The position numbers and the translations under genes were made by a program. Below the pieces are notes generated by a model. That model did no database searches. It saw only the letters and a list, made by a program, of their open reading frames with translations, and was not told where the DNA came from. This document shows, one piece after another, positions 20,895 through 26,309 of a stretch of DNA of 56,866 bases. The DNA comes from Candidatus Tectimicrobiota bacterium (GTDB lineage Bacteria; JACPUC01), in assembly GCA_016192455.1 (NCBI GenBank), contig JACPUC010000006.1:263056-319921 (forward strand), in the 5' to 3' direction. The first letter of the stretch is position 1, and each line of letters opens with the position of its first letter.

Positions 20895-20925
20895 TGGTCG
20901 GGGCGAGAGGATTTGAACCTCCGAC
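20895..20925 (-). repeat. Duplicated 3' end of tRNA-Pro (distal att site)
   Basis: These 31 bases are identical, in the same orientation, to the last 31 bases of the intact tRNA-Pro(GGG) gene at 26232-26262 (T-arm, acceptor 3' strand and CCA). Weaker similarity continues into the anticodon arm, then stops; no D-arm or acceptor 5' strand follows. This is what is expected at the far end of an element that integrated into the tRNA 3' end. An intact integrase-like fragment near the tRNA supports it. Confidence 0.8.
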
Positions 20926-20972
20926 GACGTGCATCCCCATTCACAACAACTCACTGCATCTTTGATCCCTGG

Positions 20973-21122
20973 GAGCCTGTCAGAGAATCCGCGGAACCGC
21001 TGTTTTCGCACCCGTACCACGCATTGCCCGTGCCATTCCGCACCGTAAAACAGCGTTGAATGATCCAGATGAGTGTGTGTTCCACCGTCTGACTGGTCTT
21101 GAGGCGGTGCTCCGACAGGCTC
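20973..21122. repeat. 150-bp inverted-repeat element, MITE-like
   Basis: GAGCCTGTCAGAG at 20973-20985 and its inverted near-copy at 21110-21122 (one mismatch) bracket 124 bases with no ORF. Inside, CGCTGTTTT (20998-21006) pairs exactly with AAAACAGCG (21047-21055). It could be a small non-autonomous insertion or a structured RNA. No flanking target duplication was made out. Confidence 0.35.
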
Positions 21123-21187
21123 GAAGGCGCTCCAGCTCCAGAACCTACGGACAAGTGGTTGGCGACCTGGGCGCGGTGCTCCGCGGC

Positions 21188-24100
21188 TTACTTTTCGATG
21201 ACCTCCAGACGGAGATCATCATAATAGAGAGGCTCGTTGACGATGCCGTCCTGCGTCGTATCCACGGCAAAGAACAGCGTGAAACTTCCCACCGGAAGCC
21301 CTCCAGGCAGATTGATGATTTCCAGCTCGTCCACGTCGGTGATGGGGGCCTGACGGAACGCTGCCGGCGTGGTGGTGAAGGTCGTGCCGTCGAACCAGAA
21401 GATGCCGAAAGGCGTGGCGGCGGCCACCCACCAGTCGGCCTCTTCGCCCTCGTGCCCCGCCGCATCGAGGCCGATGCTTAAGACGAACGCGTCAGTGCTG
21501 CCGAGGCTGAGCGGCCCGTCCGTTCTGTTCCCCTTGATGTCGGCGATGCTCTCGAGGCGCACCCGGATATCCATGAAATCCCGCTCGGAGCCGCTTGCAT
21601 CCGAAACCCTCACCGTGGTCTCCGCCCCTCCCCCGGGCGCTGTCGTGTCGTAGCCGGGCGCCATGCTCAGGACCAGCTTGCGCTCGCGGCTGCTGGCGAC
21701 CTCCGGTAAGCGCGGCGAGACGAGGACCAGCGCCTCGTTGGCCGATTCAGCCGTCCAGCTCAAGGTGCCGGCGCCGGCGTTGGTTACGTTCATGATGAGA
21801 CTCGGCGTCTTCCGGCTGAGATGGACCTCGCTGCGCTCGACAGCCACGCGAGCCTCTTCACCCCCGCCGATGGCTTGCGGGTCGGCATCCGCCGGCTGCG
21901 GGTCGCTCGCGTCGGGTAGCCCATCCCCATCAGTATCGGCGTTCAGGGGATCGGTAATGAAGGCGTCGCTGCCCCCGGTCACCTCTTCCAGGTCCGTCAG
22001 GCCGTCGCCGTCGGTGTCGGCCAGGTCCGGTTTGGTGCCGATCTCAAATTCACTGATGCTGCTCAGCCCATCGAGGTCCGGGTCTTCGTCGGCGTCATCG
22101 CGGCTCGGATCCAGGCCGTTGGCCGTCTCGTAATCATCGGGGAGGCCATCGACGTCGCGGTCGATCGCCTCGGGAGCAACACCGAGAACGTGGACGAAGG
22201 TGGGCGCCACGAAGGTGACGGCCGGCGCGCCGTTCTCCAGCACCTCGATCTGCAGGGTGAGGCGCACGCTGCTTGCCAGCGGTTCCCGGTAGCGCACCTG
22301 CCAGGCAACCTCCACTTCGTCGCCGCCGCTTCCTGGCACGCCGTCATCCGCCGCCAGGGGGGTTGCTCCCCCCAGCTCGAGCGGCGTCAGCGCCTCAACC
22401 GAACCCTCCGCGGCGCTGATCGTCAGCCGTGCGGACAGCCCCGTGACCGCAACGGTGCCGAGATTCCTGATGGCGGCCCGCAGGGTGAAGCGTTCGGGGC
22501 TGCTGGAAATGCTCTCGCTGCCGGTCTCGTCCGAGCTGATGCTGAAGCGGTCCACGACCACCGCCGGCAGCAGCGGCGTGGCGCCGGCGGCATTGACGAT
22601 CTCGCTGAACCTGGCAACCACCTGATCCATCTTCTCCTGCAACACAGCAACCTGCGACAGCGCCCGATTGCGGTCGGCAAGGTAGAGGCTGTCGCGCTCG
22701 CTCGGGTAGGTGAGGAGCAGGGCCTTGAAGGAGAGGTTGAGCAGCAGGCTCTGCAACTCGGCCGCCTTCAGTCGGGCGGCAAGCTCGGTCTGCACGGCGT
22801 CGGCAAGCAAGGTGGAGGCAGCGGCCTGATCGCTGCCGAGGGCCTGCGCCTTGAGGTGCGAGAGCGCCTGGGCGAAGCGCTCCAGGGCACGCTGCAAGGT
22901 ATCCTCCGCCGCAGGCTCCGAGGTGAACCAGACGACATCCGGGATGTGGTCGTCTTGCAGGCTCTCGACGATGCGGTCCAGCACCGCGTGCAGGGCGTCA
23001 CGAGCGCTCTGAAGCTGAGCGAGCAGGTTCGGGTTGAAGGTGGAGGCGGCGTCGAGCCGCTGGCGGAGCGCCGCGTCGGTTGCTCCCCCGGCTCCCTTGG
23101 CCACCTGCAAGGCAAACTGCGGCGGCGTCTGCCCGTAGGCCTGGTAGATGCCTCGCCGCACGGCATCGGGTAGCTGCAGGAAGACGTAGCCCGCCGGCAG
23201 AACGAAGGTGGCGGTGTTGGCGGCGTACTTCGTGACCTTGCCGACCGCACCCAGGGCCTTCACTTCGGGAATGGCCAGCGACAGGGCATCGAAAGCCCCC
23301 TGGGCTGTGCTGGCCGCTAGGGCGACGCCCTTGGCGAGGTGGTACTTCACGGCGATGTCGGAGGCTTTCTCGCTCATCTCGCTCAACGTCGCCACGGTCT
23401 GCGCCCGGTCCCGTTGATAGGCGACGGGGTCGCTCGTCGCCCAAGCTTCAAATTGCCGCCGAGAAAACTGCAAGGCATCCTTCGTCAGTCTGGTGTAAGA
23501 GGCCACCTGTCCATCGAGCAGATTATCGTGAGCCGACTTGATGAGTTCGGCCAGCAAGACCTTGCCAAGCTCTTTACCCAGTCCTTGAAGACTCTGGTGG
23601 ATCATCGCATTGAAGAACGAGGCGAACCCTTTCTCGACGACCGTCACTGCGAAGTTCGTGGCTCCCTGATCAGCTCCAAGGTTGATCAGGAAGACTTTTA
23701 ATGGCTTGAACAGGACCGCATCGACGACCGTCTTCATACCCTTGAAAAACTCCGAGAAGCCCAGGGTGCTGTTGCTTTTTTTTGCTGAGAGCGCGGTTTC
23801 AATGCGGTTCAGGTCACGCTCTGTGTATCTTCCCCGGCCGTACTGCCAACGGAATCCAGGGTTAAGCGAGGTTCGGCCGCCGCCTTCCTGGATGCGGCGG
23901 ATGTCTTCCGCCCGCTTCTTGAGGGCGTCGGATTCCTGTCGCAGACGCTTAAGGTTGCGGTTATCGAAGATCTTCAGTTCATCAACAAGATCACTCACCA
24001 AGGTTGCCAGCCCATCGAGCATGAAGGTGATGAGCTCATCCGCGAACTTCACCCCGTTGAAAGCGGCGCGCTCGGCCCAAATAGCCCGCTTGAGGGCTTC

Positions 24101-25432: not shown

Positions 25433-25658
25433 CTCTCCTCCCATGGCGTGCCAGCGTCATACCCGCGCGGCGCTGCCTGGAGAACGGCGAGCAGGCACGC
25501 GGTGTCAAGAACGGCATACCGGCAAGCAAGCTCCCGGTCGCTGGCTAGCCGCTCACCTGCCAACACTCTCTTCCTTTTGTAACGGCAATTCATTCCGGTG
25601 TACAGGGTAAAACTTTCGACGGCTGCGGCAAGGCTGAGCTAAGGCAGCGTTGCCGTAA

Positions 25659-26177
25659 GCGTTACGGCCGATCGTGCTCGCTCTTCTGCACACGGGAATG
25701 CGCAGCAGTGAGCTGCTCACGCTGAGGTGGGGCCAGGTGAACCTGGCGGATCGAATGATCTACCTGGAAGAGGCGAAGAATGGTGCGAGGCGGGGCGTGC
25801 CGACCAACGACGCGCTGTTCGCGGACCTGCCGGAGCAGGGAAAGGTGAGACACCCCTTCGGCGACGACGTTGTCGCCAGGCCGGAGAGCTCAGACGACCA
25901 GCGGGTGAAACCCTTCGCCGGGGTCTGCAAGGAGATGGGAGTTGAGGACTTCCACTGCCACGACCTGCGTCACACTTATGCCAGCCACCTCGTCATGGCA
26001 GGAGGAGACCTCCTGAGGGTGAAGGATTTCCTGGCGCATAAGTCCCTCGTCATGAGGGCACGGCGCCGCCACCTCACCCCATCCCCCAATCTCGCCGCGG
26101 CACAGAAGCTGACGAGCGCGTACCGAGCCGAGGAAGGATCACACCTGGCACAAATGTGGCACAAAAGCGCAGAGTGA
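25659..26177 (+). pseudogene. Truncated tyrosine recombinase (integrase) remnant
   Basis: The catalytic C-terminal half of a phage-type integrase. The frame opens after a TAA at 25656-25658, with homology-like residues (LRPIVLALLHTGMRSSELL) already before the first usable GTG at 25674, so the N-terminal DNA-binding domains are lost. Retained: the first catalytic Arg in TGMRSSE, HDLRH (His and Arg), and the His in LAHKSL. Where relatives have the nucleophilic Tyr (xxRYxHL), this protein reads RARRRHL, so it should be inactive. It ends 54 bp from the intact tRNA-Pro. Probably the integrase that inserted the element. Confidence 0.8.
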
Positions 26178-26231
26178 AAGTTTTGAAAATCTGGGGAGGG
26201 AATATAAGTCGCTGATTTTGAAGGACTAGAT

Positions 26232-26309
26232 TGGTCGGGGCGAGAGGATTTGAACCTCCGACCACTTGTACCCCATACAAGTGCGCTAGCCAGGCTGCGC
26301 CACGCCCCG
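26232..26309 (-). tRNA. tRNA-Pro(GGG)
   Basis: Full cloverleaf on the minus strand: acceptor CGGGGCG / CGCCCCG, D-stem GCGC/GCGC, anticodon stem CTTGT/ACAAG with loop ATGGGGT giving anticodon GGG, variable loop TGGTC, T-stem GGAGG/CCTCT with one G-T pair and loop TTCAAAT, and encoded ACCA. It reads codon CCC. Its 3' end is duplicated at 20895, marking it as an integration site. Confidence 0.97.

Follow-up and report, generated by a model that had tools for sequence, protein, structure and literature searches.

A stretch of about 5.3 kb beside the tRNA-Pro(GGG) gene of a Candidatus Tectimicrobiota genome (4.46 Mb in 31 contigs, 88% complete) is very probably a decayed genomic island integrated into that tRNA, a relic in a state resembling that of the cis-mobilizable elements (CIMEs), which retain their end sites and have lost their integration genes (PMC5704250). 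The window, that is, the whole stretch of 56,866 nucleotides that was analysed (G000:C2:263056-319921), contains a single tRNA called by ARAGORN, tRNA-Pro(ggg), and the interval next to it holds one large open reading frame and a piece of an integrase gene between two copies of the tRNA 3' end. Within the island interval, neither a transfer gene nor a trace of one was found. The features, in window positions, are as follows:

20895-20925, minus strand: displaced exact copy of the 31-bp tRNA 3' end, the distal end of the island (direct reading, pattern search)
20926-20946, minus strand: imperfect continuation of the displaced copy up to the tRNA-Pro(GGG) anticodon loop (alignment)
20926-26231, no strand: island interior, with a G+C content of 62.4% (flanks, 66-68%; composition)
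21188-25432, minus strand: cargo gene, 1414 aa, in a reading frame open to 25444 (ORF, Pfam, comparisons)
25665-26177, plus strand: remnant of a tyrosine integrase, C-terminal catalytic half only (Pfam PF00589, 8e-21; tblastn of, and alignment to, intact relatives)
26232-26262, minus strand: tRNA-side copy of the 31-bp repeat, comprising T arm, acceptor stem, and encoded CCA (direct reading, pattern search)
26232-26309, minus strand: tRNA-Pro(GGG), the intact target gene, the 3' part of which forms the island's tRNA-side end (ARAGORN)

The preliminary description of this DNA had reported an exact and equally oriented repeat of the tRNA 3' end, which proved correct to the base: 31 of 31 positions are identical between 26232-26262 and 20895-20925, the orientation is shared, and the flanking bases differ. 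In a pattern search allowing up to three mismatches, the 30-nt tRNA end occurs only five times in the 4.46-Mb genome, namely in the three tRNA-Pro genes (GGG, TGG, and CGG) and in two displaced copies, which lie downstream of GGG at 5.3 kb and of TGG at 2.1 kb; as a control, the pattern was reversed, and it then gave no match in the same 4.46 Mb. Therefore, the 31-bp match is not a product of chance. A scan for displaced 3' ends downstream of 39 tRNA genes from an Rfam search (up to 20 kb for each gene, less than 2 kb for a few genes near contig ends) found such fragments only at the GGG and TGG genes, the former 5337 bp away with no mismatch in the last 24 nt and the latter 2080 bp away with one mismatch. 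The tRNA-Pro(CGG) gene has no island, and its 3' end differs at two positions. A copy of the tRNA-Phe 3' end was considered as a third island and ruled out, as it belongs to a duplicate of the whole tRNA with ordinary genes between. The two tRNA-Phe(GAA) genes lie 5.1 kb apart (L081:523-5740, on G000:C1), the second with a weaker Rfam score, and are separated by glyoxalase-like and NMT1-type ABC transporter genes. The exact 30-nt tRNA-Pro end also turned up in viral contigs, in 80 stretches that mostly lack a complete tRNA, which shows it to be a common phage attachment core and an end that phages commonly use.

The distal copy is longer than the exact repeat. Imperfect similarity extends over approximately 20895-20946 and reaches the anticodon loop, and the alignment score of this extension against its own tRNA was reached by 16 of 2000 shuffles; for the corresponding extension of the TGG island, none of 2000 shuffles reached the score. 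Crossed alignments, in which each displaced copy was compared with the isoacceptor of the other, gave no signal above chance. Such ends would fit a crossover located at the anticodon loop, after which the displaced half would have decayed. Uniform decay, however, is a poor fit to the GGG ends, of which the 31-bp part is perfect and the anticodon-side part diverged. For this island, a crossover in the T arm with a diverged attachment site is a possible alternative and about as good, since all change is found on the anticodon side of a perfect 31-bp part.

An integrase remnant adjoining the tRNA had also been claimed beforehand, and the match of 25665-26177 to the Pfam Phage_integrase family (PF00589, 8e-21, plus strand) confirms it. 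The remnant begins at the start of the catalytic domain, lacking approximately 190 N-terminal residues of its intact relatives, and its 3' end faces the 3' end of tRNA-Pro(GGG). When the intact relatives were compared by tblastn with the upstream DNA and the other frames, only chance-level matches to the missing N-terminal half were obtained. Alignment with the same relatives indicates that the Arg, Lys, HxxR, and His residues are kept and that the position of the catalytic Tyr (26065-26067) is occupied by Arg. As read from these residues, the predicted enzyme cannot be active as it stands, and the complete integrase with its catalytic residues that marks an active mobile element is absent from this island. 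No intact close kin of the remnant was found in the same genome at 1e-5, the remnant itself being the only match. Four other stretches of the genome match Phage_integrase, and one of them is an intact gene adjoining a tRNA-Met on contig C20. At that locus (L082:10604-19985 on G000:C20, at the contig end), the tRNA-Met is adjoined by an intact integrase of 371 aa, after which come a primase-like ORF of 814 aa, an ArdC-like gene, and a serine recombinase; the far end lies beyond the contig.

Relatives of the integrase provide the comparative evidence. Among 29 loci carrying the nearest relatives, drawn from 386 genomes, a tRNA lies within a few hundred base pairs of the match in 22, one of them a tRNA-Pro(ggg), whereas a tRNA neighbour is often absent from the more distant relatives. 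For seven islands, a displaced tRNA fragment allowed the boundaries to be set (5857, 6914, 7179, 7630, 10023, 15293, and 15990 bp), and the five smallest (5.9-10 kb) belong to the closer relatives. In six of the seven, the block of identity starts at tRNA nucleotides 27-33, which lie at the anticodon loop or close to it; in the remaining one it starts at nucleotide 51. The orientation of the integrase in the delimited cases is the same as in the GGG island. The islands at L143, L229, L237, L238, and L244 are like the GGG island in being small (5.9-10 kb), in having a displaced fragment whose start is close to or at the anticodon loop, and in having the 3' end of the integrase beside that of the tRNA; they differ from it in their intact integrase and, in several cases, in carrying anti-phage systems instead of a secreted protein. 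The GGG island had been called unusually simple beforehand, a view that is not sustained. Because five of the seven delimited islands measure 5.9-10 kb, small size is typical of this integrase group, the 5.3 kb of the GGG island being only slightly below its intact islands. The same genome even has a simpler example in the TGG island, which is 2.1 kb long and has one gene. The simplicity of the GGG island goes with its decay, as this element is no longer able to mobilise itself.

Several of the related islands carry defence genes. For example, the cargo of L238 consists of HsdR, HsdS, and HsdM with a PrrC-like protein (type I restriction), that of L237 is a CBASS set (cyclase, SAVED-HNH effector, and E2), and that of L229 is a BglII-type endonuclease with a methylase. 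Matches to Cas9 and Cas1 were also found among the island set with PADLOC; L266, which contains a 1427-aa ORF, is probably their source, and would represent a type II CRISPR system with this ORF as the likely Cas9 member. Matching PADLOC families numbered 170 inside the islands against 8 among the genes outside, but given the redundancy of these families and a sample of seven islands, the defence enrichment in small islands of related integrases is a lead and not a result.

The second displaced copy in the genome delimits a twin island:

L006:8605-10684 (G000:C6:163604-165683): TGG island, downstream of tRNA-Pro(TGG) at L006:8527-8604

This island, of approximately 2.05-2.1 kb, has a near-exact tRNA copy at its far end (L006:10655-10684) and a single gene, coding for a 477-aa protein with DACND, DACNH, and DAC (diadenylate cyclase) domains; it has no integrase, and its G+C content is 46% against 65% in the flanks. 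A common sequence of the two islands beyond the tRNA copy was ruled out, the 30-nt end being the only match between them.

The preliminary description had also recognised that the GGG island has essentially one cargo gene, coding for a secreted protein of 1414 aa, and the ORF at 21188-25444 (minus strand) is indeed the only large one between the repeats. It encodes 1418 aa from its first ATG and 1414 aa from the ATG after GGGAGGAGAG, and the shorter reading is right because of that position of its ATG. The protein comprises a signal peptide-like start, N-terminal and helical regions without a known family, a beta domain, TSP3-like calcium-binding repeats, and a C-terminal domain. The TSP3-like repeats lie near residues 1090-1190 and score 15.8 bits with TSP3_bac, below the Pfam cut-off of 25; repeats of the DxDxDG type are visible by eye, and they match the repeat regions of the Myxococcus proteins CglD and MtsD below cut-off. 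The C-terminal domain (21188-21550) is shared with other proteins of this genome, among them one of 899 aa (G000:C6:12396-12707, 42% identity), and also recurs in other phyla; it may be a surface-sorting module. A single full-length relative was found among the 386 genomes, a protein of 1418 aa and 26% identity in the MAG RI_285, and the contig search returned the same record. No tRNA was found near that relative in the 18 kb examined, and a search of 14 genomes of the phylum of RI_285 yielded only the RI_285 protein itself. The cargo protein has no match in plasmids or viral contigs and nothing significant by sequence among solved structures; a structure predicted for residues 1-1085 from a two-sequence input was unusable (mean pLDDT 37). 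Neither this protein nor that of the TGG island matched the PADLOC models at E 0.1. Our best guess is that the cargo is probably a secreted calcium-binding protein of the cell surface or of cohesion.

The composition of the island deviates modestly from that of its surroundings. At third codon positions, the cargo gene has a G+C fraction of 0.77; three of the flanking genes reach 0.88-0.89, and the fourth, a host gene with 0.79, is close to the cargo in this respect. The set searched contains the host genome as the sole representative of its phylum, and the contig search found no relative sharing the neighbouring ThiI gene. Altogether, an integrative element in tRNA-Pro bounded by a displaced copy, as originally proposed, is well supported by the repeat, by the integrase and its orientation, by the tRNA habit of its relatives, and by the twin in tRNA-Pro(TGG). 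We infer that an element with a tRNA-targeting tyrosine integrase would have inserted into the 3' half of tRNA-Pro(GGG) by site-specific recombination; its attachment site would have supplied a matching 3' half, so that the tRNA stayed whole, and the original 3' half of the host would have been displaced to the far end (20895-20946). A later deletion or replacement may have taken the N-terminal half of the integrase and any other mobility genes. With this half and the catalytic Tyr lost, the island would be unable to excise by itself, and would now consist of its two end sites with a single intact cargo gene.

Several known systems share part of this organisation. The Islander class of genomic islands, defined with a length filter of 2-200 kb and showing length peaks at 13.6 and 39.9 kb (PMC4383910), has in common with the GGG island a tRNA gene, a correctly oriented displaced 3' fragment, an integrase ORF inside, and a length within the filter; in contrast, the integrase of the GGG island is a remnant and its 5.3 kb falls under both peaks, and the TGG island would be rejected by the integrase filter. 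The likeness to CIMEs (PMC5704250) lies in the 31-bp copies at both ends and in the lost integration function (N-terminal half missing, Tyr replaced). It is a likeness of state, to which a descent from integrative and conjugative or mobilizable elements (ICE/IME) may or may not have led, and the GGG island differs in having no tandem partner element at its site. Finally, tycheposons and other phage-satellite-like tRNA elements (PMC11389934, PMC10872708), for which sizes from approximately 4 kb are mentioned (PMC10872708), also combine a tRNA end, a tyrosine recombinase, and cargo genes.

Two other explanations of the data can be considered. The GGG and TGG islands might be cargo-only passengers kept under selection, with working end sites and moved in trans by the integrase of another element. 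This would agree with the presence of a one-gene island in each of two tRNA-Pro genes within a single genome, with an integrase that is dead in one and absent from the other, and with the good preservation of the end copies, and cis-mobilizable relics with both end sites have been described (PMC5704250). However, the remnant is the only match at 1e-5 in the genome, the intact integrase that adjoins a tRNA sits at tRNA-Met, there is no sign of recent movement, and the two islands have different anticodon-loop sequences, so that a single integrase would not be expected to act on both of them; we consider this explanation very unlikely. That the distal copy is instead the relic of a duplicated tRNA-Pro without its 5' half, with the cargo as resident DNA between the copies and the integrase remnant as a separate arrival, is highly improbable: the tRNA-Phe pair with ordinary genes between offers a precedent in the same genome, but that pair keeps both tRNA ends whereas both tRNA-Pro similarities end at the anticodon loop, like the islands of related integrases, and a remnant from a tRNA-targeting integrase clade adjoins the tRNA.

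The decayed island in tRNA-Pro(GGG) thus offers a base-exact example of a tRNA island decaying to its end sites and cargo, from a phylum of which the searched set contains this genome alone, and the long secreted protein that it encodes is a rare one. Islands with tRNA-Pro ends, one gene, and no integrase may conceivably form a stable class of passengers moved in trans, two of which would lie in two isoacceptor genes of this genome; we hold this to be very unlikely. Standard finders demanding an integrase would reject the TGG island. The pair of islands shows that finders of this kind miss the smallest cases, and the integrases related to the remnant suggest that there is a group of very small tRNA islands, among which several have whole anti-phage systems as cargo.
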